Assembly: GCA_013822345.1 (NCBI GenBank)
Contig: PNKH01000018.1
Coordinates: 1-64,000 of the forward strand
Direction: 5' to 3'
Origin: Isosphaera sp.
GTDB taxonomy: Bacteria; Planctomycetota; Planctomycetia; Gemmatales; Gemmataceae
DNA: 64,000 nucleotides
The number at the start of each line of letters is the position of its first letter. Position 1 is the stretch's first letter. The position numbers and the translations under genes were made by a program. This document shows positions 19,391 through 57,729 of this stretch, piece by piece. The notes under the pieces are model-generated. The model was not told where the DNA came from, did not search any database, and saw only the letters and a list, made by a program, of their open reading frames with translations.

Positions 19391-19779
19391 GCCCAACCCT
19401 CCGGCCGGCGGGGTGCGGGGTCGGCGGGCGGCGACACGCACCCCGCCGGGGGACGCAACCGGCCGCCCCTCGTCGCCTCTCGCCCGCTGGTTGTCAGTCG
19501 TTCCTGCGAGTGGCGGGGGCCGTCCGACAGGTGCGGGGACGGGCTTCGTCCGACTGTAACCGCCGACTTTTCCGTGCGATAACGGGTGCCCGCCGACTTT
19601 GCCGCCCACTTCACAAGGACGAAATGTACCCACCGACGCGGCGGCGGCAAGAAGAAAAAACGGCCGAACCCGAAGACATCAACGCCCGGGGAGTTGTGAC
19701 CGTCTCGATGGACGCGCGCGTAGACCAGGTGCGGGCCGGATCGGGTATCCTGACCGCGTCACCAGGGGGAGGCCGACCG
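19391..19779. other. Divergent intergenic region between the respiratory unit and the helicase gene
   Basis: This stretch must hold the promoters for both the leftward respiratory unit and the rightward helicase gene. No clear -35/-10 pair stands out. A -10-like TATCCT lies at 19746-19751, 29 bases before the helicase ATG, without a good -35. Several AT-richer patches occur around 19555-19700 (for example AAGAAGAAAAAACGG), which contrast with the surrounding GC-rich sequence. No coding region is supported here. Confidence 0.45.
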
Positions 19780-22700
19780 ATGCCGTTCGACCCGGACGCC
19801 CGCCTCGCCGGGTGGCGGAAGAGCCTGCTCGACACGAGCAAGCGGAACCGGCTGATCCGGTTCGCCGTCGGCCGCGGCGGCGGGCTGCACCTGCTCCACC
19901 CGACCGCGGCCGAGCTGTGGGCGAGCCTGGTCCGCGACGGGGCGGCGCTGACCTTCCCGCGGAAGCGCGACCTCCTCGGACTGCCGCCGGAGGTGCCCGA
20001 CCCGGACACCCTGGCGTCCGACGCCGAGGACATCCCCGACCTCGACCGCGAGCTGACCGACCTCTGCCGGCGGTCGCCGCACCTCCGGCCCGACCACCTC
20101 CTGACCGACGTCGGCGACCGCCCGCTCGCCGCCCGCCTCGCCCGCCTGGCACTGACCGCCCGCGAGGCCGAGACCGACCACGGGGTGACCACGCTGTTCG
20201 CGGCGTTCGGCTTCCTCCGCTGGTCGGAGTCGGCGGACGACGAGGAGTCGCTGGCGCCGCTGCTGCTCGTCCCGGTCCGGCTGGGGCGCGAGACGGTCGA
20301 GTCGCCGTTCACCCTACGGGCCGAGGACGACGACATCTTGCCGAACCACTCGCTCGCCGAGTTGCTCGCGTCGCAGTTCCGGGTGAGGCTGCCGGCCGCC
20401 GCCGACTGCCCGCTCGACCCGGACGACCCCGAGTGCCTGACCCGGTACCTGGCGGCGGTCCGCGAGCGGGTGGGCCCGTTCCCGCGGTGGGCGGTGACGG
20501 ACGCGGCGGCGGTCGGGGTGTTCCACTTCCAGAAGCTGGCGATGTGGGAGGACCTGGGCCGGAACGCGGCCCGGGTGACCGCCCACCCGCTCGTCCGGGC
20601 GGTCGCCGGTGACACCGCGGTGTCACTCGCCGCCCCGGCGGGGCTGCCGGCGGCCGCCGACCTGGACCGGGAGGTGGTGCCGGCCGCGGCGGTCCACATC
20701 CTCGACGCCGACAGCAGCCAGCACGAGGCGATCGAGGCGGTGGCCCGCGGGGCGCACCTGGTGATGGACGGCCCGCCGGGAACGGGGAAGAGCCAGACGA
20801 TCGCGAACATGATCGCGGGGGCGCTGGCGGCCGGGAAGACGGTGCTGTTCGTGAGCGAGAAGACGGCCGCCCTGGAGGTGGTGAAGCGGCGGCTCGACGC
20901 CCGCGGCGTCGGCGTCTTCTGCCTGGAGTTGCACAGCCACAAGGCCCGGAAAAAAGAGGTGGTGGAGCAACTGCGGGAGAGCCTGGAACTGAAGCCCGAG
21001 GGGGTGCCGGACGCGGCCGCGGCGCTGTCCGAACTCGCCCACGTGCGGGCGAGGCTGAACGGGTACGTCGCCGAACTCCACGCCGCGCGGCCGCCGCTCG
21101 GGTGGAGCGCGTTCCGGGTCCACGGCGAACTCGCCCGCCTGGTCGGGGTGCCGGGTCGGTCGCGGCTCGATATCCCGGACGTGCACGCCAAGGACGCCGA
21201 GTACCTGCGCCGCGGGACGGAGATCCTGGCCGGGCTGGCGGATTGCCGGTCGGTGATCGAGGAGCCCGGCGGCCACCCGTGGCGCGGGTGCAAAGTGACG
21301 GCATACTCGCACGCCGCGGCCGACGAAGCCCGGTTCCACCTGACCCGCCTCGCCGCCGCGGTCCCGGCCGCGGAAGCCGCCGGCCGGGCGCTCGCGGCGA
21401 CCGGCGTTGTCGCAGGAGCGCTGACCGCCCGGACGTGGCCGCTGGCCGAGGCGAACGCCCGGGCCGTGGTGGACGCGCCGCTGTTCCCGCCGGAGTGGTT
21501 CGCCGACGACCCGCGCCGGGCCGCGACCGGGGCGGTCGAGCGGCACCGGCTGCTCGCCGAGATCGCCGACCTCACCGCCAAATTGCCCGAGTTCGACGCC
21601 GCCGCGGTCGAGCGGTTCGACGCCACCGCACCGGATCGTGAGCGCCTCCGCACTACACCGCCGACGGCGTGCGACCGCCTCGCCGCGCTCGGCCGCGCCG
21701 ACGCCGCCCTCCGCGAACTCGTCACCGCGACCGGCAACCTGGCGATGTCTGCGGCGGGGTTGGGTCGGCTGCTCGGGATTGGCGTTCCCGCGACCGATCA
21801 GTGCCCGAAGGTGGCGGCCGCGGCCGGGTGGTTCGGGCGACCGGGGCCGGTGCCCGGGTCGTGGTGGAACCCGGGTCGGCGTGCGGAACTGTCGGCTGCG
21901 GCGACCCGGGCGCGCGACGACGAGACGGCGGCTCAGGCCGGTCGGATCGATCTGGTGAAGCGGTGGTCGCCGGCCGCGCTCGCGCCGGAGGCGACACGCC
22001 TGGTGCGGGACGCGGCGCACGCCGGGCGGTCGTTCCTGACGCGGCTGCTCCCGCGGTGGCGGTCGCTCCGGCAGCAGGTCGCGGCGTGGCACGTCGGCCA
22101 GCTCCCCGCCGGCGCGGCGTTCCGCACCGAACTCGCGGCGCTCGCCGAGTACCACCGTAAGGCGGACGCGGTCCGGCAGGTGGCCGCCGCGTATTCCGGC
22201 GAGTGGTTCGACGTGGGCGGCGCCGTGGACTGGACAGCGACCGTCGAAGGGTTGAACGCCGCAGGCGTTCTGGCCGCCGCGGGGGCGCGCGACGGGTCGT
22301 TCGACCGCACCGCGGTGGCGGCGGCCGCGGCGGATTTGACCCGCGCCGACGCGGCGTTCCGCGACCGGTGGGCCGCGGCCGCGCGCGAGGTGGTGCTCCC
22401 CTCCGAAGTCGGCGTCCGGCCGGCCGACCTCGCCGCGCGACTGGAGGAGGAGCGGGCGGCGGTCGGGCGCGAGTCGGCCGCGCTCGGGGTGCTGGTGTCG
22501 CTCCTGAAGCCCGGTGCAGACGTGCCGGCCGCGAACATCCGCGAGCGCGGCGAGACGTTGTCGAAGCTCGCCGCGGCGCGTCGACGGCTGTCGGCGTGTC
22601 GGGTGCCGTCGAGGTCTGCGGAGCAGACCGACGACGCACCGGCGGCGGGTGGTGCGTCGTCGGTCTGCTCCGCAGACCTCGACGGCACCCGACAAGGCCC

Positions 22701-25020
22701 GCCCTTGGACGAGCCGACCGCCCGCGCCCACGCCGACCTCGCGGCGCAGCTCCTCCCGCTGCTCGATCGGATGCCGGTGTCGCCGGCCCTCGCCGCGACG
22801 CTCAGTGAGTCCGCCGCCCGCGACCGGCTGCGAACCGCCCTCGCGGCGAGCCACACCGCCCGGCCGGACTTCGAAAAGGCGTGGGGCCGCGTCACCGCCG
22901 ACCTGTTCGACCCCGACGCGCCGGCTTCGACCAACCTCGTCCTCCGCGACACCCCGCTCTCCGACCTTGCGGCGTGGGCGACGGCCCGTGCCGCCGACGC
23001 GGACCGCCTCGCCGAGTGGGCAAGGTTCGCGCAGGTCAAGGCTGATGCCACCGCCTTCGGCCTCGCCCCGATCTTGGACGAGGTGTCGGCCGGGGAGTTT
23101 CCGCCGGCCGCGGCCGCCGACGCCTTCCGGGCCCGCTTCCTCCGGCTGTGGCTCGACGCCGTCCACCAGGAATCACCCGTCCTCGCCGGGTTCGCGACCG
23201 AGTCCCACGAGCGGCTCATCGCCCGGTTCGCACAACTCGACCGGCTGAGCATCACCGCGACCCCGCAGCGGGTGCGCGGGCGACTGCTCGCCGACCCGAT
23301 CCGCCCGCGCGTCCGCGACGACGCCCCGGACGGGTCGGAACTCGGCATCCTCCAGCGCGAGGTGAACAAGAAGCGGCGGCACCTGCCGCTCCGCGACCTG
23401 TTCCGGCAGATCCCGACCGTCCTCCGGCGGCTGAAGCCGTGCCTGATGACGAGCCCGCTCGCCGTCAGCACCTACCTCGACGCCCCGGACCTCATCTTCG
23501 ACCTCGTCATCTTCGACGAGGCGTCGCAGGTCCGGCCGCACGACGCGGTCTGTGCGATCTACCGCGGCCGGCAACTGGTCGTCGGCGGCGACCCGAAGCA
23601 GCTGCCGCCGACCGACTTCTTCGCCCGCGCCGCCGGCGACGACGAGGAGGAACCGGCCGGCACCGCCGGGTTCGAGAGCCTCCTCGACGTGTGCCTCGCG
23701 CTTGGCTTGCCGCGGGCCCGGCTCCGGTGGCACTACCGCAGCCGCCGCGAGGGGCTGATCGCGTTCTCGAACCGGCACTTCTACGACGGCCGGCTCGTCA
23801 CTTTCCCGAGCGCCGACGAGGCGACCGCCCGCGCCGTGACCTTCGTCCGGGTCGCGGACGGGCGGTTCCTCGACGGGGTGAACCCGGTCGAGGCAGGGCG
23901 CGTCGCCGACCTGGTCATGGAGCACGCCCGGACGCAGTCGGACCGGAGCCTCGGGGTGATCGCGTTCAGCCAGCGGCAGCAGGACCGGATCCTCGCCGAG
24001 ATCGAGGTGCGGCGCCGCGAGTCGCCCGACACCGAAGGGTTCTTCGACGACGGCCGGCCGGACCCGTTCTTCGTGAAAAACCTGGAGAACGTGCAGGGCG
24101 ACGAGCGGGACGTGATCCTGCTCGGGGTCGGGTACGGGCCGGACGAGAGCGGGACGGTGGCGATGCGGTTCGGGCCGCTGAACCGCGCCGGCGGCGAGCG
24201 GCGGCTGAACGTCGCGGTCACCCGCGCCCGGTGGGCGATGACCGTCGTCTCGTCGATGACCGCGGCCGACATCGACCTGTCGCGGACCGGGTCGGAGGGG
24301 GCGAAGTTGCTGAAGGCGTTCCTCGACTACGCCGAGCGCGGGCCGGTCGCGCTGGCCGAATCGGGGGGCGAACCCGCCCGCGGCGGGTCGCCGTTCGAGG
24401 ACGAGGTGGGCGACGAGTTGGCGCGGCGCGGGTTGACCGTCCACCGGCGGGTCGGGTGCGGCGGCTACCGGATCGACTTGGCCGTCAGCGACCCGGGGCA
24501 GGGGGGGCGGTACCTGCTCGGGGTCGAGTGCGACGGCGAGACGTACCGGTCCGCGGCGACGGCGCGGGACCGCGACCGGCTACGGCGCGAGGTGCTGGAA
24601 GGGCTCGGGTGGCGGCTCGTCCGGGTGTGGTCCGCCGACTGGGCGCGCGACCGCGAGAGGCAGGTCGGCCGCGTCCTCGCGGCACTGGACGCGGCGAAGC
24701 GGCCGCCCATCCCGGTCGCCCCGGACCTGCCGTTGACCCTGCTGCCGGCGGCGAAGCGTAAACCGGATGCCGAGGGCCCGGAGTATGCCGCGATCGACGA
24801 CGTGCCGGCGGCCGCGGTCGCCGAGGCCGTGACCGGGGCGCTGGCCGCGTTCGGGTCGATGCCGGCGGACGAGCTGATCGCGGCCGTGGCCAGGCGGCTC
24901 GGGTTCAAGCGGACCGGGGCGCGCATCCGGGAGCGGGTGGCCGAGGCGATGAACGTCCTCGCGGCCGCCGGGAGGCTGGCGGTCGCCGACGACGGCCGGG
25001 TTCAGGGGATGAGCCCATGA
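19780..25020 (+). CDS. DUF4011 / superfamily 1 helicase / Vsr-like nuclease / DUF3320 protein, Hhe-like
   Basis: This 1746-residue protein starts with a DUF4011-like domain (RLAGWRKSLLDTSKRNRLIR near residue 8). Superfamily 1 helicase motifs follow: Walker A GPPGTGKSQT (about 331), Walker B FDEASQVRP (about 1245), GDPKQLPPTDFF (about 1270) and RRLNVAVTRARW (about 1475). Between Walker A and B lies a long Ala/Arg-rich region of about 800 residues. The C-terminal part has a Vsr/DUF559-type nuclease (FEDEVGDELARRG, YRIDLAV, GVECDGETY) and then a DUF3320-like domain. GGGGGAGG precedes the ATG by eight bases. This order matches the single-protein anti-phage system described as Hhe; function here is inferred. 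A 96-bp palindrome lies in frame at residues 940-971. Confidence 0.85.
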   Translation: MPFDPDARLAGWRKSLLDTSKRNRLIRFAVGRGGGLHLLHPTAAELWASLVRDGAALTFPRKRDLLGLPPEVPDPDTLASDAEDIPDLDRELTDLCRRSPHLRPDHLLTDVGDRPLAARLARLALTAREAETDHGVTTLFAAFGFLRWSESADDEESLAPLLLVPVRLGRETVESPFTLRAEDDDILPNHSLAELLASQFRVRLPAAADCPLDPDDPECLTRYLAAVRERVGPFPRWAVTDAAAVGVFHFQKLAMWEDLGRNAARVTAHPLVRAVAGDTAVSLAAPAGLPAAADLDREVVPAAAVHILDADSSQHEAIEAVARGAHLVMDGPPGTGKSQTIANMIAGALAAGKTVLFVSEKTAALEVVKRRLDARGVGVFCLELHSHKARKKEVVEQLRESLELKPEGVPDAAAALSELAHVRARLNGYVAELHAARPPLGWSAFRVHGELARLVGVPGRSRLDIPDVHAKDAEYLRRGTEILAGLADCRSVIEEPGGHPWRGCKVTAYSHAAADEARFHLTRLAAAVPAAEAAGRALAATGVVAGALTARTWPLAEANARAVVDAPLFPPEWFADDPRRAATGAVERHRLLAEIADLTAKLPEFDAAAVERFDATAPDRERLRTTPPTACDRLAALGRADAALRELVTATGNLAMSAAGLGRLLGIGVPATDQCPKVAAAAGWFGRPGPVPGSWWNPGRRAELSAAATRARDDETAAQAGRIDLVKRWSPAALAPEATRLVRDAAHAGRSFLTRLLPRWRSLRQQVAAWHVGQLPAGAAFRTELAALAEYHRKADAVRQVAAAYSGEWFDVGGAVDWTATVEGLNAAGVLAAAGARDGSFDRTAVAAAAADLTRADAAFRDRWAAAAREVVLPSEVGVRPADLAARLEEERAAVGRESAALGVLVSLLKPGADVPAANIRERGETLSKLAAARRRLSACRVPSRSAEQTDDAPAAGGASSVCSADLDGTRQGPPLDEPTARAHADLAAQLLPLLDRMPVSPALAATLSESAARDRLRTALAASHTARPDFEKAWGRVTADLFDPDAPASTNLVLRDTPLSDLAAWATARAADADRLAEWARFAQVKADATAFGLAPILDEVSAGEFPPAAAADAFRARFLRLWLDAVHQESPVLAGFATESHERLIARFAQLDRLSITATPQRVRGRLLADPIRPRVRDDAPDGSELGILQREVNKKRRHLPLRDLFRQIPTVLRRLKPCLMTSPLAVSTYLDAPDLIFDLVIFDEASQVRPHDAVCAIYRGRQLVVGGDPKQLPPTDFFARAAGDDEEEPAGTAGFESLLDVCLALGLPRARLRWHYRSRREGLIAFSNRHFYDGRLVTFPSADEATARAVTFVRVADGRFLDGVNPVEAGRVADLVMEHARTQSDRSLGVIAFSQRQQDRILAEIEVRRRESPDTEGFFDDGRPDPFFVKNLENVQGDERDVILLGVGYGPDESGTVAMRFGPLNRAGGERRLNVAVTRARWAMTVVSSMTAADIDLSRTGSEGAKLLKAFLDYAERGPVALAESGGEPARGGSPFEDEVGDELARRGLTVHRRVGCGGYRIDLAVSDPGQGGRYLLGVECDGETYRSAATARDRDRLRREVLEGLGWRLVRVWSADWARDRERQVGRVLAALDAAKRPPIPVAPDLPLTLLPAAKRKPDAEGPEYAAIDDVPAAAVAEAVTGALAAFGSMPADELIAAVARRLGFKRTGARIRERVAEAMNVLAAAGRLAVADDGRVQGMSP
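22598..22693. repeat. Perfect 43-bp-arm palindrome in frame inside the helicase gene
   Basis: Arms 22598-22640 and 22651-22693 are exact complements around a ten-base loop. Each arm contains the outer stem GGGTGCCGTCGAG, a small hairpin (GTCTGCGGAGCAGAC) and the inner stem GACGACGCACC. The outer and inner stems are shared with the intergenic copies at 39108-39219 and 57622-57729. The total length is 96 bases, exactly 32 codons, so the reading frame is kept. The encoded peptide begins CRVPSRSAEQTDDAP. Confidence 0.9.
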
Positions 25021-39107: not shown

Positions 39108-39219
39108 GTAGGGTGCCGTCGAGGGTCGCGCTTCGCGACCCGACGACGCACCGGGTCACCTCCCGAGGCCGGTGGTGCGTCGGCGCCCGGCGAAGCGCCG
39201 GGCTCGACCGCACCCTACG
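39108..39219. repeat. GTAGGGTGC palindromic element, intergenic copy
   Basis: Outer arms GTAGGGTGCCGTCGAG and CTCGACCGCACCCTAC pair with one mismatch. Each side holds a small hairpin (GGTCGCGCTTCGCGACC on the left, GCCCGGCGAAGCGCCGGGC on the right), and an inner stem (GACGACGCACC, GGTGCGTCG) lies between them, so the single strand would fold as a cross-like structure. The left 45 bases differ from the copy at 57622 by one base. The same stems occur inside the helicase gene at 22598. Confidence 0.85.
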
Positions 39220-57621: not shown

Positions 57622-57729
57622 GTAGGGTGCGGTCGAGGGTCGCGCTTCGCGACCCGACGACGCACCGCCCTCACGTCCGCGCGACGGGTGGTGCGTCGTC
57701 GCTCGAAGACTCGCTCGACGGCACCCTAC
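57622..57729. repeat. GTAGGGTGC palindromic element between convergent genes
   Basis: Outer arms GTAGGGTGCGGTCGAG and CTCGACGGCACCCTAC pair with one mismatch. The inner stem GACGACGCACC / GGTGCGTCGTC and the left hairpin GGTCGCGCTTCGCGACC are those of the copy at 39108. It lies between the cls stop and the diguanylate cyclase stop, and the right end supplies the cyclase's TAG stop codon (57726-57728). A role as bidirectional terminator is likely. Confidence 0.85.

Follow-up and report, generated by a model that had tools for sequence, protein, structure and literature searches.

An in-frame GTAG-type REP dimer in a helicase-nuclease gene of the planctomycete Isosphaera sp.

Introduction

REPs carrying GTAG and CGTC tags have been described in more than 80 species, and GTAG REPs are found in planctomycetes too (Di Nocera et al. 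2013, PMC3733652). The passages of that paper relevant here report 24 GTAG families and describe degenerate GTMG tags, head-to-head (HH) homo- and heterodimers, spacer classes, and GTAG tags serving as stop codons of genes. According to the same passages, more than half of the REPs located within genes are dimers or groups coding for 20-30 residues, in-gene REPs often lie within replication, repair and helicase genes, and the Rickettsia elements RPE-4/6 are assigned to the CGTC class.

Two further systems are close to the case presented here. In REPIN/BIME elements associated with a RAYT transposase (the REPtron layout), the unit is formed by two inverted REPs, and a single RAYT gene is flanked by dimers. 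Rickettsia palindromic elements (RPE-1, RPE-4 and RPE-6) are palindromes located in frame within coding genes and presumably translated.

The locus in question lies in a 64,000-nt stretch of contig PNKH01000018.1 of Isosphaera sp., referred to below as the window. The genome holding it is a draft of 7.47 Mb in 226 contigs.

Results and Discussion

Structure of the palindrome

An inverted repeat with arms at 22597-22640 and 22651-22694 is present in the window, its arms being 44 nt long, 100% complementary and separated by 10 nt. The exact complementarity noted originally holds, the arm length being 44 nt instead of the 43 noted. Within it, the span 22598-22693 (plus strand), running from GTCG to CGAC, is a head-to-head REP homodimer (BIME/REPIN) of 96 bp, or 32 codons. 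The left REP (22598-22640, plus strand) is composed of a GTCG tag, the stem GGTGC(C)GTCG, the apical hairpin GGTCTGC-GGA-GCAGACC and the stem CGACGCACC, a hairpin structure supported on members of the repeat family. It is followed by a 10-nt spacer of the short-spacer class (GGCGGCGGGT, 22641-22650, plus strand), recurring unchanged in L013 and L040, and by the right REP (22651-22693, minus strand), an inverted copy with exactly the sequence of the left REP. As single-stranded DNA, the element has a folding energy of -73.2 kcal/mol, compared to -28.8 kcal/mol in shuffled sequences (z = -16). Both ends are GTCG and not GTAG, GTCG being a GTMG variant, and the element is a GTAG-type REP dimer headed by GTCG. 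No match to Rfam was found in the window.

The REP family in the genome

The exact inner stem is present in 57 copies in the genome, while a reversed-pattern control gave none. At least 57 dimers were found, and the 110 REP half-units (57 + 53) are paired nearly throughout. Each half-unit is built of GTAG, a stem, a variable apical hairpin and a second stem, and in a dimer two such units are arranged head to head, GTAG lying on the outside, at both ends in 38 of 48 dimers. Spacers fall into two classes, of 9-11 nt or 18-23 nt. Among 23 distinct 45-nt units, 99.7% of cells in the 17 pairs of the REP hairpin are paired, double-changed cells number 40 against 16 in shuffles, and covariation reaches 0.263 compared to 0.066 in shuffles, becoming much lower once the partner is slid. 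Where the two arms of a dimer differ, full complementarity is confined to the local hairpins; what is conserved is therefore the individual REP hairpin and not the long palindrome.

Two intergenic heterodimers of the same family lie in the window, at 39108-39218 (spacer 21 nt) and at 57622-57729 (spacer 23 nt), both of the long-spacer class; the gene to the right of the latter has its TAG stop in the CTAC end of the element. As had been noted, their stems are common with those of 22598-22693 and the apical hairpins differ; our comparison adds that the spacer (10 vs 21-23 nt) differs as well.

Using a codon model built on the verified helicase gene, 54 of the 55 dimers analysed with their flanks were found to be intergenic, and 22598-22693 was the sole one spanned by a coding segment. 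Given that coding sequence makes up about 88% of the sampled DNA, the repeats are strongly excluded from genes. Their contexts are convergent in 19 cases, unidirectional in 32 and divergent in 2, and, as in GTAG REPs, the copies are many, mostly intergenic and near gene 3′ ends. The TAG within an element's GTAG coincides exactly with the end of a neighbouring gene's frame in 29 cases (e.g., window position 57729, L008:1470 and L022:2444).

The family shares with the GTAG REPs, as described in the relevant passages of PMC3733652, the GTAG tag beside a stem-loop, the GTMG variants, head-to-head homo- and heterodimers with GTAG outside, the spacer classes, the TAG stop for flanking genes, in-frame dimers, and hosts among repair and helicase genes. 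It differs in that 32 residues are coded here compared to 20-30 there, and in that the host is a DUF4011/MTES_1575 helicase-nuclease, which those passages do not name; the stem sequence was likewise not found in the text consulted. The likeness to coding palindromes of Rickettsia, drawn originally, holds for the mechanism, and the same link is made in the relevant part of PMC3733652, but a head-to-head GTAG-type REP dimer with a likely RAYT of its own is the closer identity: RPE-4/6 carry a CGTC tag instead of GTAG/GTCG ends and decorate many proteins, whereas here one gene is affected (one of 55 dimers).

The host gene and the insertion

The host gene (19510-25020, plus strand), an open frame with the domain order DUF4011, AAA_11/AAA_12 helicase and MTES_1575 nuclease, has its longest start at 19510 and a likelier ATG at 19780. 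The element lies within this frame and lengthens it by CRVPSRSAEQTDDAPAAGGASSVCSADLDGTR, with no in-frame stop, as had been noted. In the protein numbered from nt 19690, the insert (residues 970-1002) is located between Walker A (GPPGTGKS, 361) and the Walker B motif (DEASQ, 1276), again as noted. The intact frame indicates that the 32 residues would be translated, and a tryptic peptide, SAEQTDDAPAAGGASSVCSADLDGTR, is predicted inside the insert.

Perfect inverted repeats are a recognised source of assembly errors, and in a draft of 226 contigs a misassembled contig might have joined a repeat copy into the gene. This is most improbable, as the host gene runs on in frame on either side, and the arms together with the spacer make a complete member of the family. 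Moreover, none of the other sampled dimers carries the REP sequence of 22598-22693, which was thus not taken from one of them; for the same reason, no donor copy could be identified.

The insert residues are absent from 12 orthologues of the genus (~53-68% identity) and from one orthologue of another genus of the family (39%). These orthologues, lacking the insert and showing a gap at its place, together with stems matching the genome-wide family, bear out the proposal that a repeat of an intergenic family was inserted into a coding gene. The gap comprises 23 residues (e.g., G005, G014 and G009) or 30 (e.g., G008, G010 and G013), so that the window protein has a net excess of 23 to 30 residues and no clean 32. 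The predicted addition of about 32 residues is thus correct in terms of codons in frame, while the net difference from orthologues is smaller; either the linker length varies or a few host codons may have been lost. As the region around the insert (the insert excluded) shares only ~39-55% identity with genus members, the empty site cannot be fixed at the base level, and the full-length orthologues found, none of them above ~62% protein identity, do not allow fixing it exactly. The match to the helicase orthologue in G014 (L050) was reported with one in-frame TGA.

The helicase gene is patchy, with any match found in 35 of 59 related genomes and weak matches alone in some genus members, which could mean that it is dispensable or decaying, and that the insertion is one step of its decay. 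We consider this unlikely, given that the frame is unbroken over 1776 codons, codon usage is normal and all domains are kept.

Regarding the structural setting, an AlphaFold2 model of host residues 660-1240, based on an alignment of 14 sequences, shows a helix at model residues 288-311, a low-confidence segment at 312-348 and a helix at 349-368, the insert occupying model residues 311-342. This indicates a disordered loop in the turn between two helices, but does not prove it, because confidence is expected to be low wherever the related sequences are gapped. That the insertion is in frame needs no special explanation, since ~29% of all combinations of dimer, phase and orientation would be open and a multiple of three in length.

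Symmetry of the arms

Identical arms were found in 13 of 30 short-spacer dimers, compared to ~1 expected by random pairing, and in none of 18 long-spacer dimers, where the arms are more unlike than random. In the wider set, a REP variant is private to one identical-arm dimer in four cases (L005, L013, L032 and window 22598), against 0.07 expected. This suggests that one arm was copied onto the other, or that the dimer was born of a single REP. A tentative extension is that the halves of homodimers are kept identical by arm-to-arm correction and that the symmetry of 22598-22693 could have been renewed in place, inside the gene, instead of being inherited from a donor, since both its arms share a REP variant absent elsewhere among the sampled dimers.

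The perfection of the palindrome might also be read as a sign of recruitment: the strong mRNA hairpin, or the loop gained by the protein, would then regulate the helicase or change its properties, and selection would maintain the insert. The element is indeed the only in-gene copy kept, and many in-gene REPs are reported in replication and repair genes in the relevant part of PMC3733652. However, only one copy in one genome is concerned, it occupies a tolerant loop predicted to be disordered, and of the other short-spacer dimers (29), 12 have identical arms as well, each of these 12 being intergenic, so that no protein-level selection is needed. Recruitment is accordingly very unlikely.

The RAYT locus and the distribution of the repeat

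The REP family was initially regarded as an orphan with no RAYT, an option dropped when lone REP units led to a RAYT gene at C14. This gene (G000:C14:52523-53070, L117:1624-2171), on a different contig from the window, is located between two dimers of the family, at L117:1494-1603 and 2180-2289. The profile NF047646 (REP-associated tyrosine transposase) is matched by the main part of the gene with 140 bits, at a cut-off of 80, and by its N-terminal part in another frame, so that in the assembly a frameshift interrupts the gene (near L117:1700-1720). The frameshift distinguishes it from described REPtrons. Relatives with ~60% identity are present in three genus members, and those of G015 and G016 have an uninterrupted frame. 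The RAYT at C14 was missed by Pfam and found by NCBIfam; five Y1 transposases were detected in the genome with the PF01797 profile, none of them near or flanked by the REP family of 22598-22693. The RAYT at C14 is likely the cognate transposase of the family in a REPtron layout, and this layout, combined with the literature, leads us to infer that it moved the dimer. Other Y1 transposase genes (L078, L079, L080 and L082) are flanked by unrelated inverted repeats (e.g., GTAGCCAGGGGT... and GGCAGGCAGGAATGCCTGCC), probably representing further REP families.

Among 18 other members of the genus, one has a single match to the inner stem and the rest have none. Half-unit matches were found in two Gemmataceae MAGs (7 and 32), and a Gemmataceae MAG from Lake Baikal contains a related dimer whose hairpin is shorter (GTAGGGTGTGTCAAGCGCCAGCGACGACGCACC, L090:2060-2130). 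In the MAGs with related repeats, neither a close copy of the C14 RAYT nor a full-length close helicase orthologue was found, and viral contigs gave no match to the repeat. Three actinobacterial pattern matches (L086, L088 and L094) were regarded as fortuitous, since they lack GTAG ends.

Origin and meaning of the insertion

Taken together, the element is very probably a GTAG-type REP homodimer (BIME/REPIN) of the non-autonomous, RAYT-mobilised kind, inserted once into the helicase-nuclease gene. In the mechanism we propose, the RAYT (HUH/Y1) would transfer the dimer, in the form of single-stranded DNA, to a GTMG-like target. Survival of the insert would be due to its length of 96 bp, that is, 32 whole codons, to the lack of a stop and to its position in an inter-helix loop, and the host protein would gain a flexible loop of 32 residues with little consequence. 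The perfect symmetry would stem from two identical REPs, probably held identical by arm-to-arm correction.

What this case adds to a described phenomenon is its particular stem family, the host protein and the concerted arms; it does not constitute a new kind. The locus presents a well-supported planctomycete example of a large enzyme extended by a mobile palindrome, accompanied by orthologues free of the insert, a likely cognate transposase locus and a putative structural reason for its tolerance.
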